A model generated the notes under the pieces. That model saw nothing but the letters and a program-made list of their open reading frames with translations. It did not search any database and was not told where the DNA came from. A program made the translations under genes and the position numbers. This document shows positions 1,105 to 9,852 of a stretch of 14,977 nucleotides of DNA, piece by piece (within the stretch, counting starts at the first letter, position 1; each line of letters opens with the position of its first letter). The stretch lies in assembly GCA_005880175.1 (NCBI GenBank), contig VBJR01000263.1:10396-25372 (forward strand), given 5' to 3'. The DNA is from Chloroflexota bacterium (GTDB lineage Bacteria; Chloroflexota; Dormibacteria; Dormibacterales; Dormibacteraceae).

Positions 1105-1527
1105 TCACCGGCCCGACCCCGGCTCGCTGCGCTCGATCGAGGGCATGACCACGCCCTCGAGGTACTGCTGGATGCCGTCGACGATCGCCTTGGTGACGCG
1201 CCACTCGAGGTCCTCGAACACCTGCTCGACCCGGTTGAGCTCGACGAGCATCCGCGACAGGAAGGAGGCGTCGGTCCGGATGCCAGGCGTCGGACCGACG
1301 GCGGGGGTAGCCGGCGCAGCTGACGGTGGCGACGACGGCGGCTGGGCCGATGCCGGCAGCCGCGACGTGCCCGGCGCGGCCGGCGGCGGCGCGGACACAG
1401 CGGCCTGCGCGGCGCCGAACCGGTCCTGCCAGACGTGCCAGCTCACGGCGCCGAGGCCGGTCACGAGCACGGCCTCGGCCATCACGACGAACACGAGCGG
1501 GGGGCGGACGAGAGAGGAGGGATTCAT
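1105..1527 (-). CDS. Small membrane-anchored protein of unknown function, possible partner of the VirB4-like ATPase
   Basis: The protein has 140 aa. I chose the ATG at 1527, not a longer upstream extension, because the extension would run through the promoter and repeat DNA, and because MNPSSLVRPPLVFVVMAEA starts directly at a hydrophobic helix (about residues 9-28). A Pro/Ala/Ser-rich linker (about 40-75) and a charged, probably helical C-terminal domain follow, with FLSRMLVELNRVEQVFEDLE and then QQYLEGVVMPSIERSE. This looks like a bitopic membrane protein with a flexible stalk; I recognise no family. The start lies 8 nt after a TACCGT -10 box, in a promoter nearly identical in layout to that of the PrgI-VirB4-like gene at 9803. 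That suggests co-regulation and perhaps work in one envelope complex (inference). Confidence 0.6.
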   Translation of the reverse strand: MNPSSLVRPPLVFVVMAEAVLVTGLGAVSWHVWQDRFGAAQAAVSAPPPAAPGTSRLPASAQPPSSPPSAAPATPAVGPTPGIRTDASFLSRMLVELNRVEQVFEDLEWRVTKAIVDGIQQYLEGVVMPSIERSEPGSGR

Positions 1528-1577
1528 GCCCCGGCACGGTAGGGACCGCCCGAGCGGAACGGAACCTAACCTGTTAA
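1528..1577 (-). promoter_or_regulatory. Promoter of the 1527 gene with TTAACAGGTT upstream box
   Basis: Read on the minus strand: TTAACAGGTT at 1577-1568, a weak -35 TTCCGT at 1564-1559, a 17-bp spacer, -10 TACCGT at 1541-1536, then 8 nt to the ATG. That spacing implies a leaderless or nearly leaderless mRNA. The box has a palindromic core (TAAC-AG-GTTA) and is centred about 45 bp before the start, where an activator usually sits when the -35 is poor. The layout matches the promoter at 9852-9804 base for base in spacing from box to -10. Confidence 0.55.
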
Positions 1578-1630
1578 GCGGGCCACAGCGGTTTGACGCC
1601 GACCCGCCCCCGCCCTGACCGACGCCCCCA

Positions 1631-1648
1631 CCCGCCCAGGGGGGCGGG
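1631..1648. repeat. GC hairpin in repeat unit 1
   Basis: CCCGCCC at 1631-1637 pairs with GGGCGGG at 1642-1648 around a 4-nt loop. There is no T-tract on either side, so it is not a standard intrinsic terminator. Confidence 0.6.
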
Positions 1649-1651
1649 CCC

Positions 1652-1693
1652 ACAGTACGACCGGCGGGCCGGCGGATCAAGCTAACCTGTTAA
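1652..1693 (-). promoter_or_regulatory. Repeat-borne promoter, unit 1
   Basis: Minus strand: TTAACAGGTT at 1693-1684, -35 TTGATC at 1680-1675, a 17-bp spacer, -10 TACTGT at 1657-1652. It points toward the membrane-protein gene at 1527. Of the three repeat copies this has the weakest -35, with one base changed from TTGACC. Confidence 0.5.
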
Positions 1694-1792
1694 GCCAGGG
1701 CTTGACGGAGTGGGGCAATGCCCCTCCCCCAACGAAGCCCGTGACAGCGGTGCACGCCGACCCCGCCCCGCCCTGCCCTGACCGACGCCCCC

Positions 1793-1814
1793 GCCCGCCC
1801 AGGGGGGGGCGGGC
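1793..1814. repeat. GC hairpin in repeat unit 2
   Basis: GCCCGCCC at 1793-1800 pairs with GGGCGGGC at 1807-1814 around a 6-nt G-rich loop. It starts 2 nt downstream of the unit's -10 box on the minus strand. The loop has two more G than the unit 3 copy. No T-tract follows. Confidence 0.6.
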
Positions 1815-1816
1815 CC

Positions 1817-1858
1817 ACAGTACGAGTAGCGGGCCGGCGGGTCAAGCTAACCTGTTAA
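1817..1858 (-). promoter_or_regulatory. Repeat-borne promoter, unit 2
   Basis: Minus strand: TTAACAGGTT at 1858-1849, -35 TTGACC at 1845-1840, a 17-bp spacer, -10 TACTGT at 1822-1817. This is one of the two best sigma70-like matches in the window. No start codon follows at leaderless distance, so any transcript would read on through unit 1 toward 1527. Confidence 0.55.
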
Positions 1859-1951
1859 GCCAGGGCTTGACGGAGTGCGGCAACGCCCCTTCTCACGAGG
1901 CCCATGACAGCGGGTGGACGCCGATCCCGCCCCGCCCTGACCGACGCCCCC

Positions 1952-1971
1952 GCCCGCCCAGGGGGGCGGGC
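1952..1971. repeat. GC hairpin in repeat unit 3, just after the aminotransferase
   Basis: GCCCGCCC at 1952-1959 pairs with GGGCGGGC at 1964-1971, an 8-bp stem with a 4-nt loop. It is the first strong hairpin after the long minus-strand operon and might slow or end read-through. It begins only 2 nt past the -10 of the unit 3 promoter, so RNA started there would hold only part of the stem. Confidence 0.6.
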
Positions 1972-1973
1972 CC

Positions 1974-2015
1974 ACAGTACGAGCAGCGGGCCGGCGGGTC
2001 AAGCTAACCTGTTAA
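1974..2015 (-). promoter_or_regulatory. Repeat-borne promoter, unit 3, overlapping the aminotransferase stop
   Basis: Minus strand: TTAACAGGTT at 2015-2006, -35 TTGACC at 2002-1997, a 17-bp spacer, -10 TACTGT at 1979-1974. The TAA stop of the aminotransferase (2014-2012) lies inside the box. An inverted repeat GTCAAGC/GCTTGAC (1998-2004 and 2022-2028, 17-nt loop) flanks the box and covers the -35. It could act as an operator or as a weak hairpin in read-through RNA. Confidence 0.55.
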
Positions 2016-3187
2016 GTCAGGGCTTGACGGAGAGAGGTGATGCCGCGCTCGATCGTCTCCGGGCGCTTGGGGAAGCTGAAACGGATGTGGCGGCGGCCCA
2101 GTTCGCGGTTAGCGTAGAAGCTGGAGCCGGGGACGGTCGCCACGGCCGCCGTCTCGATCAGGTGGCGCGCGAACGCCACGTCATCCAGGTCGGTCAGGCG
2201 GTCGATGCCGGCCATCACGTAGTACGCGCCGGCAGGCGGGTTCGGGTCGAAGCCGCACGCGCGCAGACCATCCAGGATGGCGGTGCGGCGCTCGCGGTAC
2301 TCCTCCACCAGTGCGTCGTAGAACGCCGGCGGAAACCGCAGCGCCGACGCCACCGCGATCTGCAGCGGGTGGGCGGCGCCCACGGTCAGGAAGTCGTGCA
2401 CCTTGCGGATGCCGTCGGTCAGCGCTGGCGGGGCGACCAGCCAGCCGATGCGCCAGCCGGTGATCGAGTACGTCTTGCTCGCGCCGCTGATCGTGATCGT
2501 CCGCTCGGCCATGCCGGGCAGTGTCGCGATGCTGACGTGATCGCCCTCGTAGACCATGTGCTCGTAGATCTCGTCCGTGATGGCGATGGCGTCGTGCTCG
2601 CGGCACAGGTCCGCGATCAGCTCGAGCTCGGCCCTGCTGTAGACCTTGCCGGTCGGGTTGTGCGGCGTGTTGACGACGATCGCCCGGGTCCGCGGGGTGA
2701 AGGCGCGCCGCAGCTCGTCGGGGTCGAACGCCCAGTCCGGCGGGCGCAGGGCGACGTACGTCGGCTGGGCGCCGCTGAGGATGCAGTCGGGGCCGTAGTT
2801 CTCGTAGAAGGGCTCGAAGACGACGACCTCGTCGCCCGGGTCCACCGCCGCCAGCATGGCGGCCATCATCGATTCGGTCGCGCCGCAGGCGACCGTCACC
2901 TCTGTCTCCGGGTCGACGGGCCGGCCCCACTCGGCGGACTTCTTCTCGGCGACCGCCCGGCGAAGGGCGGGCGCCCCCCACGTCGTCGCGTACTGGTGGT
3001 ACGCGCCGCCGGCCGCCAGCGCCTCCTGGGCCGCCTGAACGACCTCCGCCGGCGGGTCGAAGTCGGGGAATCCCTGAGCGAAGTTGACCGCCCGCTCCGG
3101 GCCGTGCAGGGCCAGGTTGACCCGCGTCATCTCGCGGATGACCGACTCCGTGAACCGGCTCGCCTTGACGCTCAGCCCGATCGTCAT
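2012..3187 (-). CDS. Class I/II pyridoxal-phosphate aminotransferase (kynurenine/methionine/aspartate aminotransferase branch)
   Basis: The protein has 391 aa, normal for fold-type I aminotransferases. It moves an amino group between an amino acid and a 2-oxo acid in the cytosol. Visible motifs are NTPHNPTG (about residues 173-180), the PLP-contacting ITDEIYEHMVYEG (D205, Y208), the Schiff-base lysine K238 in SGASKTYSITGW, the phosphate-binding arginine in WRIGW, and a C-terminal RFSF arginine for the substrate carboxylate. PTYVALRPPDW and the GASKTYS form resemble kynurenine/methionine transaminases; the exact substrate cannot be told. The ATG at 3187 overlaps the stop of the CBS gene as ATGA, implying translational coupling. 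It is the last gene of the operon. Its final codons (RGITSLRQALT) lie inside the tandem repeat and are echoed in two repeat units. Confidence 0.93.
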   Translation of the reverse strand: MTIGLSVKASRFTESVIREMTRVNLALHGPERAVNFAQGFPDFDPPAEVVQAAQEALAAGGAYHQYATTWGAPALRRAVAEKKSAEWGRPVDPETEVTVACGATESMMAAMLAAVDPGDEVVVFEPFYENYGPDCILSGAQPTYVALRPPDWAFDPDELRRAFTPRTRAIVVNTPHNPTGKVYSRAELELIADLCREHDAIAITDEIYEHMVYEGDHVSIATLPGMAERTITISGASKTYSITGWRIGWLVAPPALTDGIRKVHDFLTVGAAHPLQIAVASALRFPPAFYDALVEEYRERRTAILDGLRACGFDPNPPAGAYYVMAGIDRLTDLDDVAFARHLIETAAVATVPGSSFYANRELGRRHIRFSFPKRPETIERGITSLRQALT

Positions 3188-7559: not shown

Positions 7560-9803
7560 CGAATGGCAAGTCTCCTCGACCATCCCGTGCCGTTCGGCAA
7601 TGAGCGACGCCTGCCACGGCGGCGCCTGGACCCGCACCGGAAGGCGGGCCGGGCCCGCGCTCAGGAGGAACTCGCCGCGCCGGGCGGTCTCCAGCCCGGA
7701 CCGCTGCACCTCGCTCATCTGGAAGGCGCGCTGCAGCTTGGCCGCCTCGCCCGGCCGCTGCGCGCCGAAGAAGTGGAGGGCGGGGTTCGTCGCCACGACC
7801 GCCCCCGCCTCGCCGCTGAGCAGGTCACCCGGGTTCTGGGTGGCGAAGACCAGGCTGCCGTCGTACTTCCGGATGCGTCGCGCCAGCGAGACCACGAACC
7901 GGCGGACGGTCGCGTCCTCGAACAGCAGGCCGAGCTCGTCGACGACGAGCAGGCGGCGCCGGTCCTTCCACTTGATCTTGGCCCACAGCGCTTCCGCGAG
8001 CAGGTAGTGGACCGGCGCGACCATCTCCGCGCGGAGCTCGCGCATGCCGAACGCGACGATGGGCGCGTCCAGGTCCACGTTCGTGGGCCGGCTGAACAGC
8101 TGGCCGAGGCTGCCCCGCACCCAGCGCGCCAGGATCTGGGCGACCCGGGACGACGCCGGGAGCAGGGCGGCGACGTCGCCGAGCACGGGCCGTTCCACCG
8201 CCTCGAACGTGGCCCGGACGGCCGCCTCCAGCGTGGCGCGCTCCGTCTCGTCCAGGTCGCCGCAGATGACCCCGCACAGGTCCACCGCGTCGGCCACGGC
8301 CGGGCCGAGGGTGGCCTCGTCGTGGACGTCGCCGCGCAGGTCGAGCACGTTGATCGCGTGGCCGGAGCCGAGGGCCAGCTCGACGTCGTGGCCGCCCAGC
8401 CGCCGCGCGAGGCGGCCGTACTCGTGCTCGGGGTCGATGACGAAGACCTGCGCACCCAGCCCGAGCGCGCCCATGGCGATCGTCGAGAGCAGGTACGTCT
8501 TGCCGGCGCCCGAGTGGCCGAAGATCCCGATATTCGCGTTCGCATAGCGCGTGTCGTCGAACGGGTCGACCACCACCGGCTGGCCGGTCGCCCGGCTGGC
8601 GCCGACCACCAGGCCGCTCTCGTCCGCGAGGTCGGCATCGAACTGTCGCGGCCGAGCGGGAGCGTTGCCAGCCGGCCGTCCAGCTGCCGGAAGGTGCACC
8701 GCGCCAGCCCGCACAGCGCGGAGCGCGCCGCCGCCTCGACCTCGCCGGCGGCGGCCTCCAGCGCCTCGGGGCTGGCGGCCGTGACCGTAAGGTAGAGCGA
8801 CACGTGGAACGCGCTCTCCTGGCTCGCCGTCAGCCGCTGCTGGAGTGCCTCGGCCGCCGGGACCGCGCCCTCGACCTGGGGGTCGCCGATGCCGCCGGCG
8901 CGGTGCAGCTGGCTGGCCCGCATCTGGACGAGCTGGCGCTGGAGGTACTCGACCACCCAGGCGGTGGGCAAGCGCTCGGCGTGCCAGGCCAGGGTGACCC
9001 GCAGGCGGGCAGGCACCAGCCGGAGCAGCCAGCCGGGGGCGAGCTCCCCGCCCGGGTAGCGGTCGAGCCACCAGCTGCGGTGCCAGCCCCGCCGGTCGCG
9101 CAGCGCGCCCGGGCGCTCGGTGCCGTGGAGGGACCCGGTGGCGGCCGCGCCCGCCTCGGAGAGCCGCACGTCCGGCACGCCCAGCGAACGCAGGTCGCGC
9201 TCCAGGCCGCCCGCGGCGGCCGGCGCCGTCACCAACCGGACCTCGCGGCGCTGCGCGGCGGGCAGGTCCCGGAGCCGGGCGACGAACGCGAGGTCCCGGG
9301 CCCGGCGGTCGCCCGGGGCCGGCAGGTCGCCGCCGGCCGCCTCGGCGGGCGGCTCCGCCGCCCCGGGCACGAAGTCGACCAGCACCTGCAGCGGCGCGTC
9401 CAGCCCGTCGAGCAGGGACCGGAAGCCCGCGATCCAGCGCCGGCGGTCGTCCTCCGCCGCGTCGAGGTAGCCGATCGCGCCGCACGTGAGCACGGCGGCC
9501 TCGGACCGCGCGGGAGCGAGCTGCCGCGGCGGCAGGGCCCGGACCAGGAGGCTCACGGCCGGCCGCTCCCGATCGAGCCGATCGATCGGCCGCCCGCCCG
9601 TTCCAGCGGCCCCACGCGAGGCCGGCGCCCGCGCCCAGGGCGAGCAGGCAGGGCACGACGCGCAGCCACGGGGACAGGGCGTCGAGCCGCCAGAGGCTGA
9701 GGGCGCCGAGCACGGCGATCACCAGGTAGCCGAAGCGGACCGGGCTGAGGCCGTACACCAGCCGGTCCTCCAGGTCCACGTCCTGCGGCACGCGAGCGTT
9801 CAT
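7557..9803 (-). pseudogene. PrgI-VirB4-like conjugation/secretion ATPase with two apparent frameshifts
   Basis: The likely intact product is about 748 aa. The first frame (from ATG 9803) gives a PrgI-like start, VPQDVDLEDRLVYGLSPV, with two membrane helices, to about 9600. The homologous reading then jumps to a second frame (GRPIDRL... at about 9590) and stays there to about 8645. That part holds the VirB4 N-terminal domain, including RSWWLDRYPGGELAPGWLLR. It then returns to the first frame at QFDADLADESG for the motor domain: Walker A GHSGAGKT, Walker B LLVVDELGLLF, NPGDLLSG, and the stop at 7557. The first frame stays open throughout only because stop codons are rare at this GC content. A separate GTG start at 9556 in the second frame is possible. 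The shifts may be real decay or sequence errors. VirB4 proteins power type IV secretion or conjugation at the inner membrane, but no other known component is visible here. Confidence 0.8.
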
Positions 9804-9852
9804 GGGGACCAGGCTAGGAGGCGCCGGGCGGGAGGGGAATCCAACCTGTTAA
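9804..9852 (-). promoter_or_regulatory. Promoter of the PrgI-VirB4-like gene with TTAACAGGTT upstream box
   Basis: Minus strand: TTAACAGGTT at 9852-9843, a weak -35 TTCCCC at 9839-9834, a 17-bp spacer, -10 TAGCCT at 9816-9811, then 7 nt to the ATG at 9803, consistent with a leaderless mRNA. Box-to-35, spacer and -10 positions equal those of the 1577-1528 promoter and the three repeat-borne promoters. It probably drives the long operon at least in part. Confidence 0.55.

Follow-up and report, generated by a model that had tools for sequence, protein, structure and literature searches.

The tandem array of four promoter modules that lies before one small gene (gene B) carries copies of a conserved promoter, found before the same gene and before a set of other genes in related genomes, most of which hold it once upstream of gene B. 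The window, i.e. the whole stretch of DNA analysed, is 14,977 nucleotides long. We consider it somewhat probable that the array is the tandem duplicate of one member of this promoter class, with gene B transcribed mainly from the proximal copy and the distal copies weak or dead. What is newer in these results is the promoter class rather than the array. From the genes that carry it, the box at the head of each copy appears to be the upstream element of a DNA-uptake/T4SS-type promoter class conserved in Dormibacterota. The source, an uncultured soil-type bacterium, appears closest to Dormibacterota, and all of L001-L027, the set of related sequences used for comparison, would belong there too; the aminotransferase of the window shares 84% identity with that of L013 and 70-77% with those of the other 26.

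The tandem array before gene B

The features of the array and of its two flanking genes are the following:
2012..3187, minus strand: class I/II aminotransferase gene (Pfam PF00155, E = 1.5e-69)
1585..2032, minus strand: tandem array in which a 157-165-nt unit (aminotransferase end, box, -10, GC hairpin and tail) occurs 2.8 times
1974..2015, minus strand: promoter-like part of unit 1 (u1), box 2015-2006, TTGACC 2002-1997, TACTGT 1979-1974
1817..1858, minus strand: promoter-like part of unit 2 (u2), box 1858-1849, TTGACC 1845-1840, TACTGT 1822-1817
1652..1693, minus strand: promoter-like part of unit 3 (u3), box 1693-1684, TTGATC 1680-1675, TACTGT 1657-1652
1568..1577, minus strand: box u4 of the proximal promoter, TTAACAGGTTAGGTTCC-N18-CTACCGTG, -10 TACCGT 1541-1536
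1105..1527, minus strand: gene B, encoding 140 aa with a hydrophobic helix at the N-terminus, a Pro-rich linker and a long helix at the C-terminus

Four TTAACAGGTT boxes lie on the minus strand as direct copies, at 2015, 1858, 1693 and 1577, with spacings of 157, 165 and 116 nt; the 116 nt to the next box belong to unit 3, which is shortened. Over its 10 nt the box shows no difference among the four. With at most one mismatch, the whole window contains five boxes (the four of the array and 9843-9852), whereas 200 dinucleotide shuffles gave 0.00 on average, and TRF detected 2.8 copies of a 165-nt unit with 87% matches and a score of 691. The sequence-only reading had described four head-to-tail copies of one module on the minus strand, in units of 157-165 nt with one of 116 nt, three of them with the box, TTGACC twice and TTGATC once, a spacer of exactly 17 and TACTGT. 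The box positions and the TRF result bear out this arrangement, the spacings match the lengths, and the elements of the three copies are read at the positions listed above. As the units differ from each other by substitutions and indels, a simple duplicated-read artefact is an unlikely source of the array.

The u1 box contains the aminotransferase stop codon (offset -1 to the stop), and the repeat unit takes in the last codons and the stop of this gene, a part that the sequence-only reading had overlooked. The distance from the start of the u4 box to the gene-B ATG (1527) is 50 nt. The unit tail has no copy beyond the level of shuffles in the rest of the window, and a search of 400 sampled genomes of the phylum with two units, with at most two candidates scored per genome, gave only weak matches of 39.2-45.5 bits, in 20 genomes.

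In the family to which the closest genome, G001, belongs, 41 of 42 genomes have a relative of gene B. The protein matched no Pfam family, the best E value of its profile against solved structures was 0.17, and none of 163 pattern matches in viral contigs was a relative. The AlphaFold2 model is of low confidence (pLDDT 71.3, pTM 0.34), with long helices at 9-45 and 87-134 and a disordered Pro-rich linker.

The gene-B promoter in relatives

In relatives, one TTAACAGGCTGGGTTCC-N18-CTAGCCT is found right after the aminotransferase gene, followed by the start codon of gene B. Among the 28 loci scanned, the distance from box start to start codon is 48 nt in 23 and 49 nt in five more. The aminotransferase end is readable in 37 of the 41 gene-B genomes, and in 33 of these 37 the first base of the box directly precedes the stop codon, which is formed by the TAA of the box. 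These 33 genomes include three weak scorers (G013, G004 and G042). In G003, G017 and G014 no box is present at the aminotransferase stop, and in G018 it lies 48 nt later; as for the remaining four genomes, G035, G034 and G036 have a box before gene B and G030 stops at the contig edge.

Copy number in relatives, a comparison proposed in the sequence-only reading, was as follows: 32 of the 33 genomes with the box at the stop are single-copy, as is G001, the closest one, and only G025 has two, a further stretch in G022 with a total score of -4.9 being left out of the count. Head-to-tail copies of a promoter, four here against a single one in 32 of 33 relatives, are what we regard as tandem duplication. 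G025 is an independent two-copy case, in which the distal copy, its box spanning the aminotransferase stop, has a degraded -10 and the proximal copy is intact. Between its two copies lies a palindromic, REP-like repeat with TTTTGCGCAAAA cores, which matches 25 times, at about 20 places, across the G025 genome; G002 has 6 matches, G005 has 4 and G021 none. At two different kinds of locus (L152, minus strand 2060-1918; L304; L306) this repeat immediately precedes the box.

Other genes behind the same promoter

A fifth box, additional to the four of the sequence-only reading, is located at 9852 in the window, ahead of a PrgI-like gene:
9811..9852, minus strand: fifth promoter copy, TTAACAGGTTGGATTCC-N18-CTAGCCT, -10 TAGCCT 9816-9811, 49 nt before the ATG at 9803
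9549..9803, minus strand: PrgI-like protein (T4SS), PF12666 with E = 8.4e-4 and 20.3 bits, short of the curated cut-off (27); a VirB4-like gene is next

The VirB4-like gene shifts frame at 8636-8645 on the minus strand, where the VirB4 of a relative matches 9505-8645 and then 8636-7611 in another frame; this is either an assembly error or a real frameshift.

The 17-letter box, with at most 3 mismatches, gave 258 matches in 20 genomes compared with 25 for the reversed pattern. The matches are uneven, with 12-26 in 13 genomes and 1-6 in 7, the closest genome G001 having 4 against 3 for the control. Genes were then tested with a model for which 23 gene-B promoters were the sole training set. The test covered 14 of the 20, namely G001 and the 13 genomes richest in box matches, and left out the six other low-match genomes. 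The PrgI-like protein has matches in 13 of the 14 genomes, and the promoter precedes this T4SS gene in 13 of 13 cases. It is found before comEA-comEC in 12 of the 13 loci with comEC, the thirteenth (L170, G001) having its start some 810 nt ahead of the comEC match; no comEC match was found in G002. A second ssb gene has it in 10 of 11 cases (two score only 12.2), the eleventh being truncated by the end of its contig. The same promoter was found before none of the 14 housekeeping ssb genes and none of the 11 strong dprA hits. Since comEA-comEC, the PrgI-like gene and the second ssb carry the promoter, whereas the housekeeping ssb does not, the class is best described as of DNA-uptake/T4SS type. 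For recA, a variant TTAAC box, judged by eye, occurs in 7 of 14 genomes with scores of 3.8-26.7. This variant form, the lack of the promoter before dprA and the rarity of the consensus box in 7 of the 20 genomes speak against our reading.

The Pfam domains detected are SLBB and HHH_3 in ComEA, TrbL_4 in a VirB6-like gene with Peptidase_M23 in its neighbour, and SSB in the second ssb. A VirB2-like gene lies behind a box in all three clusters inspected; its protein had no Pfam hit, and the name rests on size and position. In G002, two boxes 54 nt apart were observed ahead of a virB2-like gene (L299, 1004-1074). Of the 26 sites in G009, 20 were inspected; among the genes behind them are gene B, prgI, comEA, the second ssb and six that are DUF559-like, and several sites (e.g. 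L117, L118, L120, L123) have no long-frame start codon at the expected distance. Similar proteins, starting 48-49 nt past the box with a looser -10, were observed at L121, L122, L124, L126, L129, L130 and L107, the DUF559 identity being checked for two of them, L122 and L126. The G009 cluster with the VirB2-like gene and the second ssb also holds, behind a box, a protein with a ClpX-type zinc finger and a LuxR-type HTH (L283, 15416-16285), a possible regulator.

The start codon lies 6-8 nt past the -10, which suggests that the promoter class probably yields leaderless transcripts; at the second ssb the leader is longer.

The array copies compared with the promoter class

A model was built from 68 sites in five gene groups (27 gene B, 13 prgI, 12 comEA, 9 ssb and 7 DUF559). 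With this all-group model, u1-u3 score 15.8 each, u4 28.8 and the PrgI site 30.8, the best of the five. When the own group was left out each time, the 68 class sites scored 18.9-40.4 and u1-u3, in the same models, 12.0-17.0. A score of at least 15.8 is reached at 26 of 623,258 positions in L001-L027, and 22 of these 26 are gene-B promoters, one of them (L021) assigned by contig coordinates. Among 13 gene-B promoters outside the 68 sites, nine score 18.3-40.7 and four, from deeper relatives, fall below the array units (G013 15.4, G004 12.3, G042 9.7 and G014 9.2), so that a score of 15.8 alone does not prove decay of the distal copies. Judging from these scores, the distal copies clearly derive from the class and lie clearly far from the window's own two good sites. 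The fourth copy had been called the proximal promoter of the 1527 gene, which agrees with our data, and diverged, which has to be reversed: the 1577 copy is canonical (28.8) and the three distal ones are diverged (15.8).

All three distal copies share the changes GGTTCC to GCTTGA and CTASCNT to GTACTGT, and they retain TTAAC, the TT at 14-15, TANNNT and the exact spacing; from the conserved GGGTTCC half only TT is left. The same changes in all three indicate either amplification of a copy that had already diverged or later homogenisation. Constraint on the box, -35 and -10 among the three copies was not detected, with 1 of 22 columns substituted compared with 10 of 103 (p = 0.69), in a test with few columns and low power. 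In the comparison of u1 and u2, the first 95 nt are less diverged than the rest (2/95 vs 8/61, p = 0.014), which could reflect constraint.

These observations can be accommodated in the following model. An activator or sigma factor probably reads the box, and the class would drive mostly leaderless mRNAs of comEA-comEC, PrgI/VirB4, the VirB2-like/TrbL operon, the second ssb, gene B and the DUF559 genes. In relatives the gene-B promoter abuts the aminotransferase gene, its TTAA supplying the stop, and in this lineage the segment formed by the aminotransferase end, the promoter and the hairpin/tail would have been duplicated in tandem to give four copies, the distal ones diverging before the amplification or being homogenised afterwards. 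The proximal copy is most likely the main promoter of gene B, and the distal copies most likely have weak or no activity and form a spacer that shields gene B from aminotransferase read-through.

The distal copies could instead be active auxiliary promoters, the change from GGTTCC to TTGACC having made an activator-dependent promoter sigma-70-like and added basal transcription of gene B. TTGACC is indeed nearer to the sigma-70 -35 than TTCC, the exact spacing and TANNNT are present in all three copies and TTGACC in two of them, and their scores are far above background and above those of the four deeper-relative gene-B promoters. Stretches with several promoters after the stop codon of an upstream gene are moreover known from mycobacterial rRNA operons (PMC10218544). 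However, a sigma-70 consensus scan of 1000-2400 (at least 4/6 in each hexamer and 9/12 in all) returned no site, u1-u3 included, and the 17-bp spacing is common to the promoter class as a whole and no independent sigma-70 hallmark. Such promoters would also produce long GC-rich leaders before a gene whose own promoter looks leaderless, no constraint on their elements was detected, and of the 33 genomes whose box sits at the stop, G025 alone has a second copy, its distal -10 being degraded. We regard auxiliary promoters as rather unlikely, although worth weighing. The identical 10-nt box of the four copies, and the other pair of boxes, before a virB2-like gene in G002, would fit extra boxes that bind a regulator without productive initiation, by titration or by a higher local concentration at gene B. 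This is improbable, as three further sites would add little to a pool like that of relatives, 13 of 20 of which have 12-26 matches each, and u1-u3 lack all but the TT of the conserved half of the element.

It is more doubtful still that the units yield a series of short structured RNAs. The hairpin starts at the expected transcript start, and a box-driven candidate non-coding RNA seems present elsewhere in the class, in five genomes. Nevertheless, the unit RNAs fold not clearly better than shuffles: of 200 shuffles, 49, 9 and 61 were as well folded as units 1-3, respectively, and 9 as well as the 53-nt hairpin stretch. The array region has no Rfam match, and the 400-genome search, with its limit of two candidates per genome, gave only matches of 39-46 bits, in 20 genomes. 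Of what the sequence-only reading had proposed, derivation of the array from one promoter directed at one small membrane-protein gene is upheld, and the GC hairpin is present, its RNA fold being no clear improvement on shuffles. The functions it had offered (raised output, titration of a regulator, a series of structured RNAs) found no positive support, the elements not being spared by substitutions in the low-power test and the folds not being clearly better than those of shuffles, though each of the three retains some probability.

Resemblance to known systems and candidate small RNAs

Competence regulons elsewhere are read from promoters with a ComK box, a SigX cin-box or CRP-S. As in those, a single upstream sequence is common here to comEA-comEC and an extra ssb; unlike them, the class takes in T4SS and DUF559 genes, and its sequence is not known to be related to theirs.

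In the mycobacterial rrn hypervariable multiple promoter regions, several promoters lie between the murA stop and one transcription unit and are tied to promoter duplication (PMC10218544). The array likewise places multiple promoters between an upstream stop codon and a single transcription unit; unlike those rRNA operons, it feeds a protein gene and consists of near-identical head-to-tail copies, the distal ones diverged from their class. The set of PrgI/VirB3, VirB4, VirB6 and VirB2-like proteins resembles that described for the T4SS of monoderms and Patescibacteria (PMC12102498), from which it differs in being joined to comEA-comEC and the second ssb by a common promoter. ComEC homologues have been described in abundant soil bacteria, a Dormibacteraeota population being among those studied; the available portion of that article neither ascribes competence genes to this population nor mentions a promoter (PMC7305173). 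In the titles and abstracts of the literature searched, no competence promoter of Dormibacterota was found.

A broader possibility, which we hold to be quite unlikely, is a Dormibacterota DNA-uptake programme, with the T4SS and ComEA-ComEC under one uncharacterised regulator and a leaderless promoter whose box doubles as the stop codon of the neighbouring gene; in this lineage, amplification in cis of the regulator's sites would have built a functional control array for gene B, a new component of the machine. The promoter class would provide a readable regulatory code for an uncultured lineage, one promoter sequence marking DNA-uptake-like genes, so that further components (gene B, the DUF559 proteins, a possible small RNA) may be identified from sequence. 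The array may be viewed as capturing a promoter in the course of tandem duplication and divergence.

In five genomes (L081, L088, L103, L106 and L306), a box lies past a gene end and faces a convergent gene. These five loci had no match in Rfam, and the non-coding stretch after the box is conserved among them (GGGGGTGGGA..CCGGCGGGAGGAGGGTGGGCCCGC in most), as a candidate small RNA.
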